Shown here one piece after another: positions 4,376 through 18,754 of a stretch of 29,204 nt of DNA. Position 1 is the stretch's first letter. Each line of letters opens with the position of its first letter. Origin of the DNA: a virus. The DNA lies in the IMG/VR virus record IMGVR_UViG_3300042122_000056, positions 1 to 29,204 of that record. One strand, given 5' to 3'. A program made the position numbers and the translations under genes. The notes under the pieces were generated by a model. That model did not search any database. It saw nothing but the letters and a program-made list of their open reading frames with translations, and had not been told where the DNA came from.

Positions 4376-5158
4376 GTGCCCAATCCGCCAAACCTAAATT
4401 ATTGCAAGATTACTGGCAACTTCAAGGCCTTCATTGCTGACAATGCGGATTCTGACGACCTTCCGGACTTCGTTCCAATGTCCGGAAGCGGACAGATCTG
4501 GCCCAATGTCACCATGGCAAAGAACACACAGGTCGGGTACAAGAGTACCTATTTCAACTCCCCGATCTCTGTCACCGTTGACCTTGACGGGGATTTGTCA
4601 CAGGGTGGGCGCAAATATGTTATGGTGCTTGCCGAGTCCGAAGTACTGAACCCGGAGTCATTCAACTACTCGATCCTGCTTAATCTTGCAGCGGACGGTG
4701 AATCAAATTTCCGCACTTACGGGCCATTTGCCTTTGACGTGATTCCGGGCGGAGAAGTTGACCTTACCGATGTCATTCCCGTCTCCATCAACGCCGGTAC
4801 CCCCATCACTCAAGGTCCTCGCGGAGAACCCGGAGACCTTGTAGGCGTAACCTCCGGATCGTGGACCGGTGCTGTGACGGTAACCGGCTACCCACAGACT
4901 TACCTTGCGACCCTAACAGGCAACGTAACGTCCCTGACGCTACCCACAAGCCCTATTGCGCTCCAGTCCGGTACAATCACCCTCGTCCTTACTCAGGACG
5001 CCACAGGGGGCCGTACAATCGCTTGGCCTGCCCCGATTCTCTGGCCTGATGGAATTGAACCTCAACCAGCAGCAGGACCAAACACTATCTCTGTTTTCCA
5101 CTTGATGTGGACGGGAACCGCGTGGCTGGGCATGCTGGGAGGAAAGTCATTTGCGTAG
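4376..5158 (+). CDS. Tail fibre-like structural protein with short collagen-like linker
   Basis: A 260-residue protein. The N-terminal part (residues 1 to about 140, beginning NYCKITGNFKAFIADNADS) resembles the N-terminal domain of actinobacteriophage minor tail proteins (from memory). A short QGPRGEPGD segment near 143-151 is collagen-like and may trimerise the protein. The C-terminal part is rich in Thr, Gly and beta-strand-like runs (LTGNVTSLTLPT, WTGTAWLGM), as in fibre tips. The GTG start at 4376 follows GAGGGA at 4365-4370 with 5-base spacing. It overlaps the giant tail gene by 8 bases, implying coupled expression and perhaps joint assembly at the adsorption apparatus. Confidence 0.72.
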   Translation: MPNPPNLNYCKITGNFKAFIADNADSDDLPDFVPMSGSGQIWPNVTMAKNTQVGYKSTYFNSPISVTVDLDGDLSQGGRKYVMVLAESEVLNPESFNYSILLNLAADGESNFRTYGPFAFDVIPGGEVDLTDVIPVSINAGTPITQGPRGEPGDLVGVTSGSWTGAVTVTGYPQTYLATLTGNVTSLTLPTSPIALQSGTITLVLTQDATGGRTIAWPAPILWPDGIEPQPAAGPNTISVFHLMWTGTAWLGMLGGKSFA

Positions 5159-8100
5159 ATCACAATTTGATTCCGGCTCACAGCCGGTTAGAAACCTGTG
5201 CCAGAATCCTCGTTATGAGGTTACCGGAGTAGCGCAAGTGGTGCGTACGAATCTATATACAAACCCTGCCTTTGCTGACACCAGTGGAACAACCAACGTA
5301 CGAACCAATCTGCTGACAAACCCTAACCTTGAAACTGTCGGCACCACAAACATTACCATGCGTACGAACCTTGCCACAAACCCTGCAATGGTTGCAACGT
5401 CCGGCCTCATCGCTGCAAGGACAAATCTCAACATTAACCCTCGCGGCGTCAATTCCTTTACAGAGTATAGCTCGGTAGTTAATCAGACCATCACCCCCAA
5501 CGTAACCATTTCAGATCATCCTGAAGGGTTTACAACGGCAAACAGGGTGACGTACACTACAGGATCTAACTGCGGAGTTATGCTCCTGACCCCAACTGAA
5601 TCCGGAGTCACTTATCACGTTCAGGCGTGGGTTTATCATGAAACTCTGCCCACTGGAGGCACCCAAAATTTTGCCCAAGCAGGAGTCCAAGCTTCCCCTG
5701 CCTTCTCCTTTGTGCAGGGGGTCTGGAAGAAGTTTACTTGGACATACACTACATCCGGAACCGCTGGCATCGGATTCAGAGTAAGTGGACAGTCAGCAGG
5801 AGGATCATTCCTCATTACTGGAGTCTCCGTGGTGAAGTCTCTAACGGCGGTCCCGTACTTTGACGCGCTCACAACCACGACGAACCGCGCCCTTAACCCA
5901 TCCATGGAAGCGGCTGGAAGTACTACAACGGTTCGCACTAACTACTGCCCAAACCCTCGACCAACCAGCACTACGGGATTTGCAAGTGCTGCACCCTCGC
6001 ACACCACTTTCTCCAATGGAATACCGGCGCACCAGTCTTCCGCCAACGGAGCAACAACCCCGTATATCTTTTCTCCGAGATGTACTATAGCTGTCACTTC
6101 GGGGGAAGTTTTTACTCTATCAGCCCTTGTGGAGTTTTCTTCGGACATCAAGGCTGTAGATATCCGTGCCCATAGACGCTCCAATAATGAATACTTCTCT
6201 TCGGGGCAGACGATTTCTCATGACCCGACCGGGCTTGGCGTACACAGGGTTTCTGTTGTCTTCACTGCCCCGTCCAACATCGCCATTGATGACTTGGACT
6301 TCTCCATCGTCTACTATGCAGCAGGGCGTACCGTCCCCGCAAGTGGGCAGTGGGCAAGGATGGGTGAAATCCTCATCGAAAAGGTAGGCGTCCTGATGCC
6401 TTACTTTGACGGCTCCACAGTACGAACCAACCTTGCCCAAAACCCGTCAGTGGAAGTGAACTCCAACGGCTGGAATAACAATGACGGAACCAGATACACT
6501 AACGCAAGGAGCACTACCCTTCCGCTGACTGGAACAGCATCGTACATGGTTACGAGAAACGCTGCAAGCCTTGACTCGGGATCATCGTCTCTCTGGGTGA
6601 ACGGAACTTCCAGCACCCTGACTGCATTGAAAGTTGCACCGGGGGACACTCTCTCCTTTTCCGTTGACGTGAAGGTGGAAAACACTAACCGTAAAATAAC
6701 AACCTATGCAGCGTTTAGAAACGCAGCGGGTACAGTACTTTTGAACACTCCGAGCATCGTAACAAACCTTACCAACGGTGTAGTTACACGAGTCTCGGAC
6801 ATCGTAACCGCTCCCGCAAACACAGACAGTGTTATCTGGGTTCTGATGACTCAGACTCAGGATGGGTCGAACGCTGTGACGGGAGAACGTACATGGTATG
6901 ATAGTCTTCTCATTGAGAAGTCCGCCGTCCTTTTGCCGTTCATTGAGACAACTTCATCGACCATTGGTGACTTCACATACTCTTGGACGGGAACTGCTGA
7001 CTCCTCTGCGAGCATTCAGCAAGCTGCTACTGTTGATTCTTGGACTAATAGATGGTACGGCTCAACAGGCGGTGCCGGTGTAGCTTGGAGGTCATCCGGC
7101 ACCGGAATGAACGGGGGTATGTCCTTCCGTAAGCTTTGGACCAAAGCCAACACAGGTACCGCCCAAGACACCGGAATTAACGTTATTGGAAACGTAGTTG
7201 AGGGGGCTACGTATACAGCATCAATTTATCAGAAATCGTCTGTAGACCAGTATATAACTCCGTACATCCAATGGCTGGACAGCGGAGGAGCTACACTTAG
7301 TGAGACAGCAAAAACAGCGAGCACATTTACTCCTGCCAATGTTTGGACTAGAGGCAGTGTAACGGCTACTGCCCCTGCTGGTGCTGTCTCTGCGAGGTTC
7401 GTATTCGGTCCTTGGGCCAATGCCACGGCAATGCCTGCCGGTGCAACTGTAGATTATGACTGGGCCATGGTTGAGGAAGCATCCGTCCTGAGGCAGTATC
7501 AGGACGGTACTGCTGCCGCGCCCGGAGACCATACCTATGCTTGGACAGGAACCGCTCACGCGAGCACAAGCCAACAAAGGATGCCTGCACTGGTTATCAA
7601 AGCTCCGCTGAACGCGGCTGTCGGGCAATCGACTGAATGGGCTGCTTCCGGTACCCAGTCCATGAGGGTGGTTGCCACCGGAAACAGTAAAGACTCCGCT
7701 GCCGCGATCCCCTTGACTATGGTCACTGGAAAGACGTACACTATCACTGCTACTTGTCGCCTAGAGGCTGCTCAGGCAGGTACTCCGGATGTCCGTGCCC
7801 GTAGGATTCAAATCTACCACTCCAACACATCAGCAAACAGTGCCTCCGCACCGAATGCTGCCGGAACAACCACGCTGTCTGTGACCTTTACCGTTACTGA
7901 CGACACCCAATACCAAGATGTCAGGCTCTACAATGGTGCCAGTGCCGGTGAAGGTGATGTGTGGTGGGATAACATACTCATTGAAGAGACTGACGTAAGC
8001 AAGCCCTACTTCGATGGAAGTTCGACTCCTGCACAGGACATGACCCATGCGTGGTCGGGAACGGCAAATGCCTCTACGTCCCTCATGCGTGTAAATCTTC

Positions 8101-10679
8101 CGGCAGGTATGTCCAACTCCGGTAACCGCTTCGGAATCCACTCTACCGAGTGGGCTGCACGTGGAACTAAGTCCATTAAGGTCACCCATTCTTTTGCATC
8201 TTCGGCAACCAATAACGATCAGTTCGTTGAGCTTCAGAATATGATCAGTGGCGGACTACAGGCCAACAAGACTTACACCATTTCTGGAACCTGTAGAACA
8301 GCAGCCACCCTGACTGGAACGCTGAGTTCCAGCGCCATGAAGTTCCTGCTTACGGTTAACAGCGTCAACATCCCTATCACCTACAGTAAAACAAAGGCTA
8401 ACACTCCGGGTGCTTCTCGTGTTGTCGGAACGTTTACTACAGGTGCGGACACCAATATTAGCTTCTTCAGGGTGATGGGTGGAGCATCTTACGGGAACGG
8501 CGATGTGTGGTGGGATGAACTGGTCCTCGAAGAAGGCATCACAGACGGAAGCTTCTTCGACGGATCAGGTTCGGCAAATACCAACCTGCTGTCCAATCCC
8601 GGATTCGAGACGGATACGACCGGATGGGGAGGGGCTGGAGCGCCTGTTGGAACCATTTCTAGGGTAACGACCGAAAAGTACGTTGGAACAGCGTCCCTCA
8701 GGGTTGATTGCTCCGGTGCCGCAGCCAATCAGGGAACTTTCATCAACGCCAGCAGGCCCGCACTTGTAAGTGGAATGACCTATACTGCGTCGGTATGGAT
8801 CAAGGGTGAAGCCGGAAAGAGGATACATCTAGAGATCCGAGAACTTACGTCAGCGTTTGGACTTATCGCGTCCACTTCCTCCTCAATCATTACAGCCACC
8901 GGCTCATGGGAGAGAATTTCTGTCTCCCGACAGACGACAACCGGCGTCTGGGGTGATATGGTTGTCCGAAATACTGATGCAGTAGCCCATACCTTCTATG
9001 TCGATGCTGCCATGTTCGAGCAGTCCACTTCCGCATCTATTGACTGGTATGCAGGGACAGGAGATTTCACCTACGGATGGACGGGAACAGCAGATGCCAG
9101 CACTAGCTTCCAGAGAGGCGTTGTCCCTGTCTCCGTTACAGCAGGTAACATTTACCGTTATGTGTCAACGGTGTGGTCCGTGTCCGGGAACTCTCTTCGA
9201 ATTACGCCCATGGATGTTGGAGGCAGTAACTCAACGTCTGCCAACATTAACGTTACGCTGACAGCGGGGAAGACGTACACAGCAGTCGCAACCAGAAGGC
9301 TGGCAGCGCCTCTGACCGGAACACTAAATTCTTCATATGCCGGGAAGATGGCCCTTATCCAACCAAACCTAGCGACCCTTTCCTCCAGCCAGCTTCCGAA
9401 TGTGGCTGGTGCCGCAACGCTGACATGGACCTTTACTGTAGATCCTGCTTCCGTTGGACACACCTTCCGTCTCGGGCATGGAGGCGGACCCGGAAGTGGT
9501 GACGTGTGGTGGGATAACGTTCTCATTGTCGAAGGAGAGTATGCAGGAAACTACTTTGATGGGTCAACCCCTGCCTCGGGAGATTTCACATACTCATGGA
9601 CCGGCACTGCCAACGCATCGACTTCACGAGAGAGCGCTGCTGGGCCGTCGATGGTGAACACCAGCGGGTCAGCGGCTAGGGCGCATTTCCTTTCCACTGA
9701 TCGACCAGCAGGGCACTCAAAGTTCGTTAGGCTCGCCAACTACTCATCGAACCTAGCCATTGGATTCAATCCCACCGACTGTGTAATAGCCAGCAACATC
9801 CAGAGGACTGACCTACTGTGGGTTCGTTCGTCTCGTTCAATCAGCCTAAAGCTCCGCTACCGTACTCCTGATGGTGCTGGATCAGTTGACTGGGGTAGCG
9901 TCGCGCTCACTGCCAACGAATGGAAGCAGGTTCGCGCCTTCGGCAAGCCTAATATTGGAGCAAACGCTGCCTTGGGTCCGATCATTGAGGCAACTACCGG
10001 ATTTCAGCCGGGAGATACCCTCGACATCGGCCCTCACATGACTGTTGAAGGTACCTATCTCGGTGAACACATCGACGGGACCAAACCGCTCAGCAAGTGG
10101 GACGGAACATCGGATCAGTCCACTTCGGTAGGGTACGCTCCACAGCTTTACGACTTTGCTGGCAAGCCTCTTGTTGACCTATCAACCTCGAACATAACAG
10201 TTGCTCTGGACAACAGCTTCACCAATGTCGAACCAAGGACGTTCTACACTGTGTACTCGGTCCTTGGTTATCCGGGGGCCACAACGTATGCTATTGTAAA
10301 CTATGGAACAACTGGACTATCTGACACAATCCCAAACAGTACGATGATCTTGAGGACGCAGGGTTCGACTTCTTCCGTGTCCGTTATCAACCGTAGGACT
10401 GGGGGCGCTGGACCATTCTCTCCCAACCCTACCCTTGCCCACAACGTTGCCTGTTGGGGTATTCGAGGGGACGGAACTCAGTTCATCCAAAACAATGGGG
10501 GAACACTAGTGACGAGTACTCAGGTTATGGATATTATGCATCAATCGATCAACATCCTTGCAGATAGCGTTGCTCATAAGCACGTCAGGACAATCATGTT
10601 CCGTGGCTACCACGACGATGCTACGAGAGCGGCAATTTCTCGTTATCTTGGAAACAAGTACGGTGCGTCAGTAGCCTAA
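5151..10679 (+). CDS. Giant modular minor tail protein, 1842 residues
   Basis: Predicted virion tail protein probably contacting the host cell wall. The N-terminus has tandem copies of a short RTNLxTNP motif (bases about 5235-5430). The body is a chain of jelly-roll or carbohydrate-binding-like modules. Module ends are marked by DVWWDNxLIEE followed by YFDGS and a TYSWTGTANAST-type phrase, near bases 5855, 6402, 6936, 7495, 8008, 8555, 9047, 9554 and 10070, so about 165-185 residues per module. The last roughly 180 residues lack that signature and resemble a lectin/LamG-like domain (tentative). The TTG start at 5151 follows GGGAGGAAAG and overlaps the upstream gene, which ends at 5158. No catalytic motif was seen. 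Similar modular proteins are annotated as minor tail proteins in Arthrobacter and Microbacterium phages (general knowledge). Confidence 0.82.
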   Translation: MRRSQFDSGSQPVRNLCQNPRYEVTGVAQVVRTNLYTNPAFADTSGTTNVRTNLLTNPNLETVGTTNITMRTNLATNPAMVATSGLIAARTNLNINPRGVNSFTEYSSVVNQTITPNVTISDHPEGFTTANRVTYTTGSNCGVMLLTPTESGVTYHVQAWVYHETLPTGGTQNFAQAGVQASPAFSFVQGVWKKFTWTYTTSGTAGIGFRVSGQSAGGSFLITGVSVVKSLTAVPYFDALTTTTNRALNPSMEAAGSTTTVRTNYCPNPRPTSTTGFASAAPSHTTFSNGIPAHQSSANGATTPYIFSPRCTIAVTSGEVFTLSALVEFSSDIKAVDIRAHRRSNNEYFSSGQTISHDPTGLGVHRVSVVFTAPSNIAIDDLDFSIVYYAAGRTVPASGQWARMGEILIEKVGVLMPYFDGSTVRTNLAQNPSVEVNSNGWNNNDGTRYTNARSTTLPLTGTASYMVTRNAASLDSGSSSLWVNGTSSTLTALKVAPGDTLSFSVDVKVENTNRKITTYAAFRNAAGTVLLNTPSIVTNLTNGVVTRVSDIVTAPANTDSVIWVLMTQTQDGSNAVTGERTWYDSLLIEKSAVLLPFIETTSSTIGDFTYSWTGTADSSASIQQAATVDSWTNRWYGSTGGAGVAWRSSGTGMNGGMSFRKLWTKANTGTAQDTGINVIGNVVEGATYTASIYQKSSVDQYITPYIQWLDSGGATLSETAKTASTFTPANVWTRGSVTATAPAGAVSARFVFGPWANATAMPAGATVDYDWAMVEEASVLRQYQDGTAAAPGDHTYAWTGTAHASTSQQRMPALVIKAPLNAAVGQSTEWAASGTQSMRVVATGNSKDSAAAIPLTMVTGKTYTITATCRLEAAQAGTPDVRARRIQIYHSNTSANSASAPNAAGTTTLSVTFTVTDDTQYQDVRLYNGASAGEGDVWWDNILIEETDVSKPYFDGSSTPAQDMTHAWSGTANASTSLMRVNLPAGMSNSGNRFGIHSTEWAARGTKSIKVTHSFASSATNNDQFVELQNMISGGLQANKTYTISGTCRTAATLTGTLSSSAMKFLLTVNSVNIPITYSKTKANTPGASRVVGTFTTGADTNISFFRVMGGASYGNGDVWWDELVLEEGITDGSFFDGSGSANTNLLSNPGFETDTTGWGGAGAPVGTISRVTTEKYVGTASLRVDCSGAAANQGTFINASRPALVSGMTYTASVWIKGEAGKRIHLEIRELTSAFGLIASTSSSIITATGSWERISVSRQTTTGVWGDMVVRNTDAVAHTFYVDAAMFEQSTSASIDWYAGTGDFTYGWTGTADASTSFQRGVVPVSVTAGNIYRYVSTVWSVSGNSLRITPMDVGGSNSTSANINVTLTAGKTYTAVATRRLAAPLTGTLNSSYAGKMALIQPNLATLSSSQLPNVAGAATLTWTFTVDPASVGHTFRLGHGGGPGSGDVWWDNVLIVEGEYAGNYFDGSTPASGDFTYSWTGTANASTSRESAAGPSMVNTSGSAARAHFLSTDRPAGHSKFVRLANYSSNLAIGFNPTDCVIASNIQRTDLLWVRSSRSISLKLRYRTPDGAGSVDWGSVALTANEWKQVRAFGKPNIGANAALGPIIEATTGFQPGDTLDIGPHMTVEGTYLGEHIDGTKPLSKWDGTSDQSTSVGYAPQLYDFAGKPLVDLSTSNITVALDNSFTNVEPRTFYTVYSVLGYPGATTYAIVNYGTTGLSDTIPNSTMILRTQGSTSSVSVINRRTGGAGPFSPNPTLAHNVACWGIRGDGTQFIQNNGGTLVTSTQVMDIMHQSINILADSVAHKHVRTIMFRGYHDDATRAAISRYLGNKYGASVA
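5850..10100 (+). repeat. Tandem protein-coding modules within the giant tail gene
   Basis: The YFDGS/SWTGTA boundary phrase recurs about nine times at spacings of roughly 490-560 bases. The copies are clearly related as protein but have diverged at the DNA level, which suggests old duplications followed by selection or module exchange. Confidence 0.75.
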
Positions 10680-10680
10680 G

Positions 10681-10710
10681 TTGACAGTGTGTCTTTCCGT
10701 AGTGTAGGTT
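10681..10710 (+). promoter_or_regulatory. Promoter for the first sortase-substrate gene
   Basis: TTGACA at 10681-10686, an 18-bp spacer and TAGGTT at 10705-10710. It begins 2 bases after the tail gene stop. The promoter of the next gene has the same -35, the same spacer length and the same TAGTGTAG string at the spacer/-10 junction. Confidence 0.65.
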
Positions 10711-10755
10711 TTGTTCAACACCAAAACGAAACATCAAACACTACGGAAAGGCACA
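10688..10755 (+). promoter_or_regulatory. 17-bp inverted repeat whose right arm contains the ribosome binding site
   Basis: CTTTCCGTAGTG (10693-10704) is the exact reverse complement of CACTACGGAAAG (10739-10750). Pairing extends outward to 10688 and 10755 with one G-T wobble, giving 17 pairs. A smaller stem, GTTTTG/CAAAAC (10708-10713 and 10722-10727), sits in the loop. The right arm holds GGAAAGG, the ribosome site of the TTG at 10758. The left arm lies inside the promoter spacer, so only transcripts from upstream would contain both arms. Confidence 0.75.
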
Positions 10756-10757
10756 AC

Positions 10758-11453
10758 TTGAAGAAGTTTTTCTCTGCCCTGCTGGTCCTCGCTGGTATCC
10801 TTGGAGTCTCACTGATCTCCACAACACCGGCCCACGCAAGCAGCACCGACAAGCAGGTAATCTGTAAGGCAACGGAGAGCGACACCAACCCTTACGTGAA
10901 GAACATCGTCGCCAACGAGTCCATCGTCAAGGGCGGACACGGAAGCTCAGGAATCAACGAAGGTGACATCATTCCGCCGTTCACCTACAATTTCGGTGGC
11001 AACGATTACGGCAACTACCCCGGACAGAACTGGACCGAAAAGAATCAGAAGTTCTGGGCCAACAACTGCGAACCGACTAACACGGTCCTTGTCCCGATCC
11101 TTTCCGAGCAGCCTGTCGGTACCTGCATGAACCCCACACCGCAACTGGCCTTCCCGACGCAGAGCGAACACATTGACGGAAGCTGGACACTTGAAGGCAA
11201 CACATATACTGTGACCTTTACAAAGACGGCGGACGACGCGTACAACACCTACACCTTCGCTGAAGGCTTTACCAATCCCGTCACCATCGAAATCGTTCCT
11301 GCCGGTCCCGGAGACCCCTACTGGGACGACACCAAGGGAGCCTGCAACCTTCCCGACACTGGTGCTGGAGTCAAGTCTGAACACCTTGTCATTGGCGGTG
11401 GACTGATCTTTGCAGGACTCGTTCTCACCGCTCTTGTACGTCGAAAGAATTAG
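10758..11453 (+). CDS. Secreted protein with C-terminal LPXTG sortase signal
   Basis: A 231-residue protein. The TTG start at 10758 follows GGAAAGG with 6-base spacing and gives a proper signal peptide (KKFFSALLVLAGILGVSLI, cleavage likely after AHA). An ATG at 10689 would put 23 extra residues before it and lies within the promoter region. The C-terminus has LPDTG at 198-202, a hydrophobic stretch (about 210-226) and RRKN, the classic cell-wall sorting signal cut by host sortase. The central region has no recognised domain; it contains several cysteines and aromatic, Asn-rich segments. It could be displayed on the infected cell surface, perhaps altering adsorption or superinfection (inference). 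Confidence 0.8.
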   Translation: MKKFFSALLVLAGILGVSLISTTPAHASSTDKQVICKATESDTNPYVKNIVANESIVKGGHGSSGINEGDIIPPFTYNFGGNDYGNYPGQNWTEKNQKFWANNCEPTNTVLVPILSEQPVGTCMNPTPQLAFPTQSEHIDGSWTLEGNTYTVTFTKTADDAYNTYTFAEGFTNPVTIEIVPAGPGDPYWDDTKGACNLPDTGAGVKSEHLVIGGGLIFAGLVLTALVRRKN

Positions 11454-11486
11454 TTGACACAACTCTTTGGTCTAGTGTAGAGTTGT
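11454..11486 (+). promoter_or_regulatory. Promoter with internal dyad before the Excalibur gene
   Basis: TTGACA at 11454-11459, an 18-bp spacer and TAGAGT at 11478-11483. ACAACTCT (11459-11466) and AGAGTTGT (11479-11486) form a perfect 8-bp dyad covering the spacer and -10, followed by TTTTC. It could be an operator, a weak terminator for the preceding gene, or both. Confidence 0.6.
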
Positions 11487-11522
11487 TTTCATAAAGTAAA
11501 AGACTACGGAAAGGTATATACA

Positions 11523-11975
11523 ATGAAAAAGCTCACGACCATCCTTATCGGAACAATGCTCTTCGTTTCGTCCCTCTTCATCGGATCATCGGCCTTCGCA
11601 TCACCGAGTTGTGCGGACATCCTTCGGGAAGGAACAGCAAACATTAACCCGAGTCTATTGTTCAGCTACGACAACGACGGAGACGGCAAGGTCTGCGAGA
11701 CTTCGGCGGTACAGGACGGAATCAAGAATCCTGATCCAGTTGCCACTGAGCCACCTGTCCTCGGACCAGCACTACCAAAGGCTCCGGGGGCTTCGGGAAC
11801 CAAGGGGCAGGGCGGTGACAATTCGGTCAAGGCCAACCCAAACGCACAAAACTCACACAAGCTCGCTGATACCGGAGCAGATGCCAGTCTCGTTGTATGG
11901 CTCTCCGTGGGATTGTTGTCTCTCATCGTAGGTGCAGCACTTCTGATCCGACTTCGGAGACAGACCAAAGCTTGA
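11523..11975 (+). CDS. Secreted Excalibur-like protein with LAXTG sortase signal
   Basis: A 150-residue protein. Residues 1 to about 26 form a signal peptide (MKKLTTILIGTMLFVSSLFI, cleavage likely after AFA). Next comes an Excalibur-like calcium-binding segment with SCADI and DNDGDGKVCE, whose two cysteines probably pair. A Pro, Gly and Asn-rich linker follows. The C-terminus has LADTG at 114-118, a hydrophobic helix and RLRRQTKA. LAXTG is the motif preferred by class E sortases of high-GC actinobacteria (family knowledge). The ATG at 11523 follows GGAAAGG at 11508-11514. Its leader shares ACTACGGAAAGG with the preceding gene, suggesting common regulation or duplication of the control region. 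Confidence 0.83.
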   Translation: MKKLTTILIGTMLFVSSLFIGSSAFASPSCADILREGTANINPSLLFSYDNDGDGKVCETSAVQDGIKNPDPVATEPPVLGPALPKAPGASGTKGQGGDNSVKANPNAQNSHKLADTGADASLVVWLSVGLLSLIVGAALLIRLRRQTKA

Positions 11976-11980
11976 CGGGA

Positions 11981-12007
11981 AGCCCCTCTTCGGAGGGGTT
12001 TCTTTTT
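11981..12007 (+). terminator. Strong rho-independent terminator
   Basis: CCCCTC (11983-11988) pairs with GAGGGG (11993-11998) around a TTCG tetraloop, followed by TTTCTTTTTT. It ends the two secreted-protein genes. Confidence 0.9.
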
Positions 12008-12022
12008 TGCCTGAAAGTGTGT

Positions 12023-12035
12023 TAGAATCTCTTCA
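12023..12035 (+). promoter_or_regulatory. -10 element predicting a leaderless RlaP mRNA
   Basis: TAGAAT at 12023-12028, preceded by TGT as an extended -10, ends 7 bases before the ATG at 12036. Transcription would therefore start at or next to the A of the start codon. No ribosome site precedes the ATG. The -35 region overlaps the T-tract of the previous terminator and is weak. Confidence 0.5.
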
Positions 12036-12689
12036 ATGAACAACATCTGCCTTCAGGCCGTAACGGGTAGCCGTGCATATGGCCTCAATCACGCACTTTC
12101 AGACACCGACAAGATGAGCATCTTTATTGCTCCCACCATTGAGGTTGCCGGTCTCCATTGGAACTCCAGCAAGGAGTCATGGTCCGATGCAGGACCAATT
12201 GGGGATGACAACACAGCACATGAGATTGGAAAGTACCTTCGACTTGTGCTAAAGTCGAATCCAACGCTCATTGAACTGCTGTTCATGGACGACTATGAGA
12301 TCCTTGACGAAACAGGCAAGGGAATCATAGAACTGCGGGATAAGATTCTTTACACTGACGGGGTTCGGAACGCCTACTACGGCTACGCCAAGGCTCAGGT
12401 GGAGCGGGTCAAGCGGGAATACCCCAACCACAAGCCAAAGATGGCTCGTCACGCCGTACGAATCACCATGCAGGGTCTGGAGCTACTGACTACCGGAACA
12501 ACAAATGTTAAGGTCAAAAACCCTGAGTGGTATTTCGATCTGGAAAATCTCCCATTCGAGTACCTGTCATCCTTGATGGACCTGTACGTTGATACACTGA
12601 ATAATGCCCAGTCGATTCTTCCGGGTAAGCCGGATGTAAGGGCCGTGGAAGATTTCCTCCGAGAGGTCAGACGAAATAACATAGACTAG
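12036..12689 (+). CDS. RlaP-like nucleotidyltransferase
   Basis: A 217-residue member of the polymerase beta-type nucleotidyltransferase superfamily. Residues 10-28 (GSRAYGL...SDTDKMSIFIAP) match the GS...D.D catalytic pattern of RlaP/YcgL-type proteins (Pfam RlaP, from memory). Helical segments follow, with an IELLFMDDYEIL stretch also seen in that family. RlaP stands for RNA ligase-associated protein; its reaction is not established. The RNA ligase and kinase genes lie about 10 kb upstream in this window. The start has no ribosome site and lies 7 bases after a -10 box, so a leaderless mRNA is predicted. The AAA ATPase gene follows 12 bases downstream. Confidence 0.78.
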   Translation: MNNICLQAVTGSRAYGLNHALSDTDKMSIFIAPTIEVAGLHWNSSKESWSDAGPIGDDNTAHEIGKYLRLVLKSNPTLIELLFMDDYEILDETGKGIIELRDKILYTDGVRNAYYGYAKAQVERVKREYPNHKPKMARHAVRITMQGLELLTTGTTNVKVKNPEWYFDLENLPFEYLSSLMDLYVDTLNNAQSILPGKPDVRAVEDFLREVRRNNID

Positions 12690-14194: not shown

Positions 14195-14476
14195 ATGACC
14201 ACCACCAATCACCCCACGCCAAACAACTTTTTGGTATACTACTCGTTTGCTTTTCCCAAGTCGGATCTTCGACCGGAGAATCAGCGCTGGGGTAACGGAT
14301 CTATTCCGATCCAGACAGATAAGGTTCCGAAAACGGATGAAGAGTTTAAGGAAATTGCACGGGAGATAGGTAAGCTCGGAGGTTACGAGATTGTCGTCAT
14401 TACCAAATTGATGCCAACAGATAGCTTTATTGACGATTCAGGAGAAATCCTAGAAGGACTCATCGTCAATGACTAA
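14195..14476 (+). CDS. Unknown 93-residue protein
   Basis: No family recognised. The protein is soluble-looking, with mixed beta segments (NFLVYYSFAF, YEIVVITKL) and one predicted amphipathic helix (TDEEFKEIAREIGKLG). The ATG at 14195 follows AAGGA with 5-base spacing. It overlaps the WhiB gene by 8 bases, so the two are likely coupled. Reality is supported by the tandem promoters, the ribosome site and the overlap. Confidence 0.7.
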   Translation: MTTTNHPTPNNFLVYYSFAFPKSDLRPENQRWGNGSIPIQTDKVPKTDEEFKEIAREIGKLGGYEIVVITKLMPTDSFIDDSGEILEGLIVND

Positions 14477-14933: not shown

Positions 14934-15800
14934 ATGGAAAATTTGTGCTATGTCGTCTATGGACTCAAACTTGTAAACGAATCAGGATACCGATACGTCG
15001 GAATAACTACAGGTAAACCGAAAAATAGACTGAGTGGTCATATGCATATGGCCTTCTCAAGAGAGTCTAAGCTGGCTGTCCACTGCTGGATTCGGAAATA
15101 CGGTCGTGAGTCAATCATAATGAAAATTTTGGAGGAGTGTCCCCGTGGAGATTGGGAATATCTTACGTATGCTGAGAGATATTGGATAAAATCTCTCAAG
15201 AAGTTCGGCCACAAGCTCTTGAATCACACAGAGGGCGGTGAGGGTGTACTAGGGTTGCCTGCATGGAACAAGGGAGTCCCTATGACAAAAGAGCAAAAGG
15301 AGCATATGAGGATACTTAATACCGGAAAGGTGTTGCCCGAAGATCAAAAAGAACTAATTCGTCTTGGTGTCCGTAGGCATTTCGAGACTAATGGACATAA
15401 ACCTGTCTATGATTTCTGGATTGAGAAATACGGAAAAGAAGAAGCTGATCGACTGAGAGAGGAAAAGCGCAAGAAAGCCTCAGCTAAAATGTCCGGAGAA
15501 GGTAACCCTATGTTCGGGAGATCTGGACAGGACGCTCCTTGTTATGGTAGGGTAGGGGACAAGCACCCGATGTTTGGCAAGAACCATTCCGCCGAAGCCA
15601 AGAATAAGATATCTCAAACACAAAAGGGAAAGAAAGACTCTGAAGCTACCAAACTTCGTAAAAGTTTTGCCCAACACATCAGAGCGCACGAAACCAAGAT
15701 AAAGGAAACATGTAGGTGGTGCCTTGGGGCCGACTTACAGAATGAAATAAAGAAAGTAGAGCTAAATTTAGATGGCGCAAAGCTGGAAACAAGCGGTTGA
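14934..15800 (+). CDS. GIY-YIG homing endonuclease with NUMOD3-type repeats (first copy)
   Basis: A 288-residue free-standing homing endonuclease. The N-terminal GIY-YIG nuclease domain reads VVYGL...YRYVGIT (about residues 7-25), with a candidate catalytic arginine at Arg32 and glutamate at Glu81 (YAERYWI). The C-terminal half carries NUMOD3-type DNA-binding repeats: GEGNPMFGRSG, APCYGRVGD and KHPMFGKNHS, then a basic tail with CRWC. It would cleave a site in an allele lacking the gene and copy itself in. The gene is more AT-rich and lysine-rich than its neighbours. It lies between the WhiB and DinG-like genes, and its 3' end overlaps the DinG-like start by 29 bases. No ribosome site precedes the ATG. 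Confidence 0.9.
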   Translation: MENLCYVVYGLKLVNESGYRYVGITTGKPKNRLSGHMHMAFSRESKLAVHCWIRKYGRESIIMKILEECPRGDWEYLTYAERYWIKSLKKFGHKLLNHTEGGEGVLGLPAWNKGVPMTKEQKEHMRILNTGKVLPEDQKELIRLGVRRHFETNGHKPVYDFWIEKYGKEEADRLREEKRKKASAKMSGEGNPMFGRSGQDAPCYGRVGDKHPMFGKNHSAEAKNKISQTQKGKKDSEATKLRKSFAQHIRAHETKIKETCRWCLGADLQNEIKKVELNLDGAKLETSG

Positions 15801-17913
15801 TGCAGCAAATACCAAAATAGATGACTGGAATATTGCTTTTGCACCAGTATTGAATCAAGGAAGGGAGCCTCGACCTAGCCAAGAAATGCTAGGTCAGGCT
15901 ATTATTGACGCCATAAATACAAAAACTAGTTTGATCGCGTCTGCGGCGACGGGAACCGGGAAAAGCTTCGCATCTCTAGTACCAATTATCGTAGCGATTC
16001 AGAAGGCCAAGAAGCAGAAGAAGGTATTTCGTGGAATCGTTTCCACGGAAACCCTGACTCTTCAGGACCAGCTTGTAGATAAGGATCTCCCATTTCTCTC
16101 TACACTATACAAAGATTTCACGTATAGGAAGTTGATGGGAAGAACCAATTATCTCTGCCTTGAGGTAGCCAAGGGTGCGGCTGTCGGTGATCTAATTATG
16201 AACTCCATGGTTGAAAAGCTCAAGATGCGTCAGGACAACCTAGGCGACGGAGAGCGTAAGGATGTTGAACGTGTACTCGGCAGGGAATTGACCAACGACC
16301 AATGGTCCAAGATTGCCTCAACCTCCCAGTTCTGCCCTGACAATCAGTGCTCCGGGGATGACTGCTACTCTACCCGCGCTCGCGGTTTGGCGCAGGGGGC
16401 GGACCTTGTAGTCGTCAACCACGCCATCCTCGCAACCGACCTTGAGATGAAGGGCGGGGACCCGCTGGCTGACGGGATGCTGGGGCAGTTCAACGTTCTA
16501 GTAGTGGATGAAGGCCACCAGCTTGAACCGGTTCTTGTCTCCCAGTGGACCAAGGAACTTTCCGAGCGTGACCTTGAGAAGATGGCCGGAAGTGTCGCTG
16601 AGGGTGTGGAGCTTGCAAAGTCCGTGGTCTCCAACCACCAGATCGGGAAAACGATCAACGATGCCATGGACGAGCTTCGTGATCTCTTGGCGAACGTGAA
16701 GCGGTATTTCATGCTACTCAATGAGAAGTCCGGGGAGGATTGGCAGGGTTCATCAACGGCTCTGTCGCTAAAGTACCCAATTGGAATGCCGTCAGGCGCT
16801 TTGGCGGATGCCATGGAAGAGTTTGAAACGGAAAATCCGGGAAGGCTTTTGCGTGCTGAGGAAGCCCTTACCAAGACCTCCGAGTATTTGACTCCAGTGA
16901 TTGCCAAAGCGGCAGACGAGAAGATCAAGGGTATTCGTAAAATCCGTAAGGGTCTGACAGCTACCAAGGACCTTCTGGATATCGTCAGGATCATCTCTAA
17001 GGCCCTTGAAACCAAGGATGGTATCATTCAGGACTACGGCACCTATGGAGCGCTTGTAGACGGCTGGGAGACCTTCAAGGACAAGACTCCGATGATGACG
17101 ATCCGTCTGGTACCCTTGGATGTTTCTACCAAGGCCAAGGCGTTGTGGGGGAAGGAAGGCGGACAGACCAACATTCTGCTTTCGGCTACGCTGACTGACC
17201 TCACGGACGGCTCCTTCAAGTACGCCCGAGAGTGTGTTGGGTTCCCGCACAGTCCTGAATTGAACGTGGACACCCCGTTCTCTCTCGCTACCCAGCAGCT
17301 AATCTACGTAACTCCTGCCAACCGTGAACAGGTAGAGGGTGCACGCTATTCCTTCAGTGAACTGCTGGATCTGATCAACGTGTCCCGTGGCCGTGCGCTC
17401 GTATTGTTCACGTCCCGGAGGGAACTTGACTGGGCCGCTGAGCAGATCACCAAGCTCAAGCACTTGGGACACTTCCCGTACCCGCTCTATGTGCAGGAGA
17501 AAGATTCAAACAAGGCTAAACTGATGGAACTATTTAAGAACGACGTTGATTCAGTTCTCCTTGGACTGAAATCTTTCTTCGTGGGGATCGACGTTCCGGG
17601 GGAGTCTTTGTCCTTGGTGGTTCTGGCTAAGTTCCCGCTTCCTCGATACAGTGCCGAATGCCGACAGCAGATCCAGCACTGGGGCACCCGTGGCTTCCCG
17701 CGCTGGTATGAGCGTGAGGCGTTGACCATCTTCCAGCAGGCCTCTGGCCGACTCATCCGGTCCTCCGGCTGCAAGGGCGTCGTGGCGCTCTTGGATGCGA
17801 GAGTAATGGATACCACAAATAGTGTGTATAAGACAGCTAAACTTGGAGTTAACGCCCTTGGTTCTCCTGTCACTCAGGATATACATGTTGTGAAGGAGTT
17901 TCTAAGTGCCTAA
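15772..17913 (+). CDS. dinG: DinG/XPD-type superfamily 2 DNA helicase with probable Fe-S cluster
   Basis: A 713-residue 5'-to-3' helicase of the DinG/Rad3 type, expected to unwind forks, R-loops or recombination intermediates. Walker A TGTGKS is at 60-65 and the DEAH-box variant DEGH at 246-249. Motif VI QASGRLIRS is near the C-terminus. Four cysteines, Cys129, Cys188, Cys193 and Cys198, sit between motifs Ia and II, where XPD-type enzymes hold a 4Fe-4S cluster. The ATG at 15772 lies inside the upstream homing endonuclease gene and has only a weak ribosome site, so initiation may depend on coupling. The 3' end overlaps the second homing endonuclease gene. The N-terminal 300 bases are AT-richer than the rest of the gene. 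Confidence 0.88.
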   Translation: MAQSWKQAVDAANTKIDDWNIAFAPVLNQGREPRPSQEMLGQAIIDAINTKTSLIASAATGTGKSFASLVPIIVAIQKAKKQKKVFRGIVSTETLTLQDQLVDKDLPFLSTLYKDFTYRKLMGRTNYLCLEVAKGAAVGDLIMNSMVEKLKMRQDNLGDGERKDVERVLGRELTNDQWSKIASTSQFCPDNQCSGDDCYSTRARGLAQGADLVVVNHAILATDLEMKGGDPLADGMLGQFNVLVVDEGHQLEPVLVSQWTKELSERDLEKMAGSVAEGVELAKSVVSNHQIGKTINDAMDELRDLLANVKRYFMLLNEKSGEDWQGSSTALSLKYPIGMPSGALADAMEEFETENPGRLLRAEEALTKTSEYLTPVIAKAADEKIKGIRKIRKGLTATKDLLDIVRIISKALETKDGIIQDYGTYGALVDGWETFKDKTPMMTIRLVPLDVSTKAKALWGKEGGQTNILLSATLTDLTDGSFKYARECVGFPHSPELNVDTPFSLATQQLIYVTPANREQVEGARYSFSELLDLINVSRGRALVLFTSRRELDWAAEQITKLKHLGHFPYPLYVQEKDSNKAKLMELFKNDVDSVLLGLKSFFVGIDVPGESLSLVVLAKFPLPRYSAECRQQIQHWGTRGFPRWYEREALTIFQQASGRLIRSSGCKGVVALLDARVMDTTNSVYKTAKLGVNALGSPVTQDIHVVKEFLSA

Positions 17914-18754
17914 TATTCAGTGTCGAGGTAAAGAAACCTCCTTATGGGCTGTATATGGGATGAGACTCTGGAACGAAGATGAGTACCGGTATGTTGGATA
18001 CACTACCGTAGGTATCCTATCAAGAAGTAAAGAGCACATGAAGGATGCCAAGAAGTACTCAACCGCTGTATATAACTGGTACTGGAAATATGCAGGATCA
18101 GTACAGATTGTTATGGAAGTCATCGAAGAATGTCCGAATGATGATATTCAATACGTTAAATTTAGGGAACAGTTCTGGATTGCCACGTATCGAGATCAGT
18201 ATCGTCTTGGCATAAGAAATAAACCTCTCTTGAATCACAGGGACGGGGGTGATGGGTTCAATGGAATCAAAGGTGAACTCCACCCTAACTATGGAAAACC
18301 AGCTTGGAATAGAGGAGTTCCGATGTCAGACGACCAAAAATCTCTGATAAGCTTGGCTAGAACAGGTAAACCTATTCACTCGGTGGATCAGAAGTTGAAA
18401 TGGTCTGAAGAAAGGTCTGGACCCGGAAACCCTATGTACGGTAAGCGAGGGGAAGATCATCCTGCATTTGGATATAAGATGTCGGATGAAGGAAAAACAT
18501 TTAGATCTGTGAGATTTTCTGGGGAAGGTAACCCAATGTATGGAAAGATTCCTTGGAATAAAGGACTTTCGGGGGACGAAACGATCTCTGGAGAGAGACA
18601 CGGCATGTCCAAACTTTCAGAGTTGGATGTAAGATCCATAAGGTCGAGATACGATTCTGGTGAGAGTCCTTCAAGGATATGCACGGAATATGGAGTGACT
18701 GTTTCTACTATCTGCAAGATTGGTAAGAGGCAGACATGGAAAAACATTGAGTAA
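17906..18754 (+). CDS. GIY-YIG homing endonuclease with NUMOD3-type repeats (second copy)
   Basis: A 282-residue relative of the first endonuclease. The GIY-YIG domain reads AVYGM...YRYVGYT in the first 36 residues, with a candidate glutamate in FREQFWI. NUMOD3-type repeats follow (GELHPNYGKPAW, GPGNPMYGKRG, DHPAFGYK, GEGNPMYGKIPW). A C-terminal helix-turn-helix (DVRSIRSRY...ICTEYGVTVSTICKI) probably contacts the target. The GTG at 17906 has a strong ribosome site, GAAGGAG at 17892-17898, inside the DinG-like gene. The gene is AT-rich and sits between the DinG-like and primase genes. It differs from the first copy in having the helix-turn-helix and lacking the C-terminal CRWC segment. Confidence 0.89.
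   Translation: MPNIQCRGKETSLWAVYGMRLWNEDEYRYVGYTTVGILSRSKEHMKDAKKYSTAVYNWYWKYAGSVQIVMEVIEECPNDDIQYVKFREQFWIATYRDQYRLGIRNKPLLNHRDGGDGFNGIKGELHPNYGKPAWNRGVPMSDDQKSLISLARTGKPIHSVDQKLKWSEERSGPGNPMYGKRGEDHPAFGYKMSDEGKTFRSVRFSGEGNPMYGKIPWNKGLSGDETISGERHGMSKLSELDVRSIRSRYDSGESPSRICTEYGVTVSTICKIGKRQTWKNIE

Follow-up and report, generated by a model that had tools for sequence, protein, structure and literature searches.

A candidate RNA switch set by the position of transcription start at a surface-protein gene of large Arthrobacter phages, probably akin to T4 gene e

In bacteriophage T4, the initiation region of the genes e, soc, 49, and I-TevI is hidden in an RNA helix (PMC3014915). In the case of gene e, encoding lysozyme, late promoters are located within the DNA of the 5′ strand of this helix; the long early transcripts, started upstream, fold over the initiation region and are repressed about 100-fold, while the locally started mRNA is devoid of the 5′ strand (PMC3014915). 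A late promoter also lies near the 5′ strand of the I-TevI helix, and in soc, 49, I-TevI, and mobE of the Aeromonas phage Aeh1 either the Shine–Dalgarno (SD) site or the AUG is sequestered (PMC3014915). A similar sequestration is predicted for the locus described here, but these four genes are unrelated to it in both gene and sequence. A comparable logic is found in the transposase genes of IS10 and IS50, where read-through mRNA coming from outside folds over the ribosome site and the mRNA of the element's own promoter lacks the outer arm. As proposed below for the phage stem, the read-through message is hidden and the local one is free; the difference is that these are mobile elements, in which the arm belongs to the terminal repeat.

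The locus belongs to a virus record of 29,204 bases (IMGVR_UViG_3300042122_000056, positions 1 to 29,204), referred to as the window, and all its features lie on the + strand. The upstream gene of the ORF list (5151–10679) encodes a large tail-fibre-like protein of 1842 aa with a carbohydrate-binding domain (CBM_4_9, Pfam, E 3e-19), whose homologues are annotated as minor tail protein in phages Racecar and Mimi, and represents the candidate source of read-through mRNA. It is followed by the putatively regulated gene (10758–11453, with a TTG start at 10758), for which the ORF list, tblastn, and a domain search point to a secreted protein of 231 aa. This protein has a signal peptide, a C-terminal LPDTG motif, a membrane segment, and an RRKN tail, i.e., a signal of the sorting type, and it matched Gram_pos_anchor below the curated cut-off (E 0.0026); it also has relatives in Leucobacter and Frankiales genomes. 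The ORF list places a second sorting-signal protein, with an LADTGA motif, at 11523–11975, and an intrinsic terminator is recognizable by sequence and fold after the two genes (11977–12008). Both adjacent genes encode a signal peptide, a sorting-type signal, a membrane segment, and a basic tail, as if their products were meant for display on the host surface; a literature search found no study of the phage-encoded sorting-signal surface protein.

Some features of the neighbouring region can be mentioned here. The strong terminator is followed, within 11977–12036, by an extended -10 (TGTTAGAAT) just a few nucleotides before the ATG of a nucleotidyl transferase gene, so that its mRNA would be almost leaderless. 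Further downstream, two related GIY-YIG homing endonuclease-like genes (14934–15800 and 17906–18754) interrupt the WhiB–helicase–primase cluster, and the first of them overlaps the start of the helicase gene, whose leader is displaced.

The stop codon of the tail gene (TAA, 10677–10679) ends just one nucleotide before the hexamer TTGACA (10681–10686), which would represent the -35 element of a local promoter and is identical, and adjoins the tail-gene stop, in five of five phages. An 18-nt spacer (10687–10704) separates it from the probable -10 hexamer TAGGTT (10705–10710), which was placed from the sequence and the relatives; it matches the consensus at only three of six positions (1, 2, and 6), and because of this weak match a plain promoter scan did not list the promoter. 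In the relatives, the corresponding hexamer is TAAAGT, TAGAGT, or TATTCT. The position of the -10 predicts a transcription start near 10717 (about ±2 nt).

The control region is spanned by two arms, 10688–10705 (TGTGTCTTTCCGTAGTGT) and 10738–10755 (ACACTACGGAAAGGCACA), which are 94% complementary as DNA and enclose a loop of 32 nt. The initial annotation had described a 17-bp inverted repeat; the repeat and its coordinates were confirmed, while its length had to be corrected, since the RNA stem consists of 18 continuous pairs, 17 of them Watson–Crick and one G-U, a mismatch in DNA. The same annotation had located the left arm in the promoter spacer and the ribosome site GGAAAGG in the right arm, and both placements hold: the left arm fills the spacer, and GGAAAGG (10745–10751) lies inside the right arm, 6 nt before the TTG start. 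The GAAAGG of this SD corresponds to the complement of the 16S rRNA 3′ end (AGAAAGGAGG).

The stem has a predicted folding energy of -33.8 kcal/mol (z = -8.1), and none of 200 shuffled sequences folded as well. It exceeds every other stem of the window in length, and among the SD-covering ones it is again the longest (18 pairs, against 12 for the next ORF). A census of contiguous, SD-covering stems of at least 14 bp with loops of 14–55 nt disclosed one in the window (0 expected from shuffles), one in Racecar (0.05 expected), and three in phage Atuin (0.15 expected). The Rfam covariance models gave no match to a curated regulatory RNA in the window.

The effect of the left arm was evaluated as the energy necessary to expose the stretch between -16 and the start codon in mRNAs with different 5′ ends. 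In the window, this predicted opening cost is 25 kcal/mol for an mRNA extending 200 nt upstream, and falls to 5–6 kcal/mol without the left arm. Similar changes between the read-through mRNA and the mRNA devoid of the arm were obtained for Racecar (20 to 5 kcal/mol), Atuin (19 to 6), and Mimi (22 to 4), for an overall decrease from about 19–25 to 4–7 kcal/mol. In Racecar, the change between long and short mRNA at the homologous gene 190 (15.2) is the largest of 246 genes (mean 0.9, sd 2.9).

A tblastn search with the 231-aa protein retrieved the Arthrobacter phages Racecar, Talia1610, and Mimi, with 33–42% identity, and the more distant Qui and Paella; Atuin, the fourth relative sharing the layout, was found via the nucleotidyl transferase. 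In Racecar, Talia1610, and Mimi, the gene order is minor tail/hypothetical, surface protein, nucleotidyl transferase, small gene, WhiB, helicase, and primase. All four relatives exhibit the same control layout, consisting of stop codon, TTGACA, left arm, -10-like hexamer, loop, right arm with GAAAGG, and ATG; hence, in five phages, the conserved TTGACA and a -10-like hexamer bracket the left arm, the start site being predicted. The leader of Qui contains an unrelated hairpin, and the bacterial, host-encoded relatives of the surface protein have no comparable stem. In IMG/VR, an exact-pattern search for further copies gave mostly chance matches with other folds. A profile search based on the surface protein yielded only L138 and L139, distant relatives that lack the layout, and profiles of the nucleotidyl transferase and helicase retrieved two large contigs of the same group (G002, comprising L140 and L154, and G001, comprising L155), in which the surface-protein gene is absent at this place. 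The latter searches also recovered a contig of 6.8 kb, identical to the helicase of the window.

The alignment of the five leaders contains 17 shared pairs, and standard pairs occupy 85 of its 85 cells (100%); if the partner is slid by one to three columns, the pairing falls to 35–61%. Two pairs have undergone compensatory, two-sided changes (U-A/C-G and C-G/A-U/G-C), and a single one-sided change (U-G to C-G) was observed. The number of two-sided changes and of further pair types was reached by many shuffles, and, with only five LPXTG leaders known, those of Racecar and Talia being nearly identical, about three substitution events account for the covariation. The structure is conserved among five related phages. 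The loop diverges, and the distance from TTGACA to the start is 77, 74, 74, 74, and 72 nt. Since the length changes between Mimi and Racecar are not multiples of three, no reading frame is conserved through the stem, and a coding interpretation was discarded; the start annotated for Racecar gene 190 (130862) falls near the 3′ end of the left arm, while those of Talia, Mimi, and Atuin are placed at a later ATG.

As in the T4 gene e class, then, the predicted fold and its conservation place a helix over the SD of an mRNA started upstream. The repeat probably represents an RNA switch set by the position of transcription start. In the read-through mRNA from the tail gene, both arms would be present and the 18-bp helix would bury the SD, leaving the surface-protein gene untranslated; the mRNA from the local TTGACA promoter would begin after the left arm, because this arm is the promoter spacer, so the SD would be free and the gene translated. 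The folding of the read-through mRNA over the SD, which the initial annotation had anticipated, agrees with the computed fold, with the conservation, and with the loss of opening cost without the left arm, and its explanation of the repeat is the best supported one. Promoter-dependent sequestration of the SD is, in our opinion, likely, on the basis of the computed helix, SD coverage, conservation with compensatory changes, promoter position, and difference in accessibility; to these, the model adds the exact start site, the existence of the read-through mRNA, the size of the effect in the cell, and the timing, which we infer.

Read-through is expected, as the tail stop and TTGACA leave no room for a terminator between them. 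As for the promoter, a scan of Racecar for TTGACA plus a TAnnnT -10 gave 121 hits of the TTGACA type, 65 of which lie outside the counted + strand genes, although these genes cover 78% of the sequence (22% is outside). In Racecar, these promoters are often located 58–74 nt before start codons, like that of the window, and their recurrence before genes makes the TTGACA promoter credible. The portal, capsid-region, head-tail adaptor, and tail-operon genes are preceded by an extended -10, such as TGGTAAAAT, without a good -35, which suggests two promoter classes, one with an extended -10 and the other with a full TTGACA -35. Judging from motifs and gene content, the tail-operon read-through is probably late and the TTGACA promoter of a different class. 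With the tail operon depending on the extended -10 and the surface-protein gene on a full TTGACA, the stem would probably silence the tail-operon read-through, leaving the surface-protein gene under its own promoter.

The analogy with T4 gene e, which had been proposed together with that with soc and finds confirmation in the published descriptions (PMC3014915), points to a probable further case of this mechanism, as the structural features coincide, that probably arose independently of the T4 one. The two systems also differ in several aspects. The promoters of gene e are phage late promoters (TATAAATA), whereas in the present case the left arm is enclosed by a TTGACA promoter of the sigma-70-like type; moreover, T4 silences early read-through, whereas the tail-operon read-through is probably late. 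Gene, host, and phage lineage are different, and gene e, unlike the sequence-based prediction presented here, has been tested at the bench. A search of the open literature found no description of the regulation of these Arthrobacter phages.

Other explanations of the stem can be considered. The SD might be hidden in the read-through mRNA and the helix opened by the ribosomes terminating on the tail gene, or by a protein or an RNA, i.e., by translational coupling or a riboswitch-like event. The tail stop codon lies only a few nucleotides before the left arm in all five phages, as this idea would require; however, the estimated footprint of a terminating ribosome would reach only about 1–4 nt into this arm in the window (5–7 nt in the relatives), so that the anti-SD strand would stay largely paired, and a promoter exactly bracketing the arm in five phages is left unexplained. 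This possibility is therefore considered unlikely. Somewhat more doubtful still is the idea that the helix mainly serves RNA processing or stability, as an RNase III site or as a protection of the 3′ end of the tail mRNA. It is true that 18–20 continuous pairs suffice for double-strand-specific cleavage and that the stem closely follows the tail gene's stop, but it would not be clear why the right arm always holds the SD before the start codon, nor why the same layout, with unrelated arms, is found at other genes. The stem is not an intrinsic terminator either, that is, a G+C-rich stem followed by a U tract: in the five phages, the right arm is followed by ACTTGAAG, TTTTCAATG, TCAATG, or TTTTCCATG, and no U tract is present.

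The inverted symmetry, with one arm between -35 and -10, could also be that of a DNA operator, in which two inverted half-sites for a regulator overlap the promoter. This is very improbable, since the arms vary between genes and phages yet stay complementary, a T-G combination, mismatched in DNA but able to pair in RNA, persists in four of the five phages, and the right arm tracks the SD. Both the terminator and the operator interpretations of the repeat were thus rejected, the former for the lack of a U tract and the latter for the complementarity kept despite the divergence of the arms.

The control region of the next gene (11454–11515, recognized by sequence and fold) is paralogous to the first one: it contains TTGACA (11454–11459), a -10 TAGAGT (11478–11483), and an SD block ACTACGGAAAGG (11504–11515) identical to part of the first right arm. 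In this region, no complementary left arm and no helix were found (fold z about 0), and the opening cost of the gene starting at 11523 is 7.5 in the read-through context. It represents a natural contrast, which shows that the promoter parts can exist without the stem. That the stem is a chance product or a relic, formed without regulatory effect where read-through is rare, is hardly believable in view of this stemless paralogue, the compensatory changes over five phages, and the near absence of such stems from shuffles.

A scan for recurrence of the proposed switch, in which promoter spacers and SD sites were compared, covered two complete phages and two large contigs besides the window. Spacer/SD duplexes of -25 kcal/mol or lower were found in 5 of 130 promoter–gene pairs, where swapped pairs would give 0.13 and shuffles 0.01. 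Three of these five belong to the surface-protein gene. With respect to promoterless genes scanned with sliding windows, 5 of 130 versus 10 of 988 reached -24 kcal/mol (p = 0.02), while no enrichment at promoter genes was seen at -18 or -20 kcal/mol. The idea of a general spacer/SD complementarity in these phages hence failed at moderate energies and was retained for the strong cases only; the device looks real, and it is rare rather than general.

In the other strong cases, the arm sequences are unrelated and the left arm lies shortly before a -10. The endolysin gene of Atuin (gp137) has an 18-bp helix, TAGCCGTTTCCGATGGTA/TATCATCGGAGACGGCTA, right before the ATG, and its left arm ends within an extended -10, TAAAAT (leader at L157 48363–48422, i.e., Atuin 98363–98422); the arm is absent from the endolysin leader of Racecar. 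For Atuin gp233, which starts at 154820, the helix comprises 14 bp and the promoter is TTGACA-17-TAGTCT; for Racecar gene 8, it comprises 13 bp in a TAGACA-17-TACAGT promoter, an arrangement common to Mimi and Talia. The helicase leader is a weaker, unproven case: it can pair in three lineages, and three of the pairs are changed on both sides, but the predicted sequestration is largely lost in a long read-through mRNA, where upstream sequence outcompetes the stem, so not every spacer/SD match need be functional. L149 (2525–2599) and L150 (9276–9350) share a 13-bp helix, TTTCTCCTTTCTT/AAGAAAGGAGAAA, over the SD before an ATG and beside TTGACA; it is possibly an independent case, left out of the count because the -10 could not be placed.

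Hairpins of other types were also noticed. In the terminal repeat of Racecar (L006 6420–17042), many genes are preceded by long hairpins, whose left flank often carries TTACAAAACTTGA and whose right flank TATAGT or a similar motif. Like the stem described here, these overlap TTGAC-type promoters, but they have TTGAC(A) in the loop and the spacer as right arm, and mostly leave the SD uncovered. The leaders at 14195 of the window and at L002 7557 have short hairpins (GATAGTAGTAAATTACTATC and GGTAGTATTCAATCACTACC) after the -10, at the predicted 5′ end of the mRNA, which are possibly 5′-end stabilisers.

If promoter-dependent sequestration operates as proposed, the logic of T4 gene e would extend to a distant group of actinobacterial phages, and the endolysin of Atuin would even repeat the T4 case with a lysis gene. 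The chances are about even that this group of large Arthrobacter phages has repeatedly and independently evolved the placement of an anti-SD strand in the promoter, at several genes unrelated to one another (surface protein, endolysin, gp233, gene 8, and possibly the DNA helicase), so that each of them responds to its own promoter alone in places lacking a terminator towards the neighbouring gene. A gene could thereby be uncoupled, by simple means and with no need of a terminator, from those around it. The corresponding rule, a promoter spacer complementary to the downstream SD, can be used to scan other phages.
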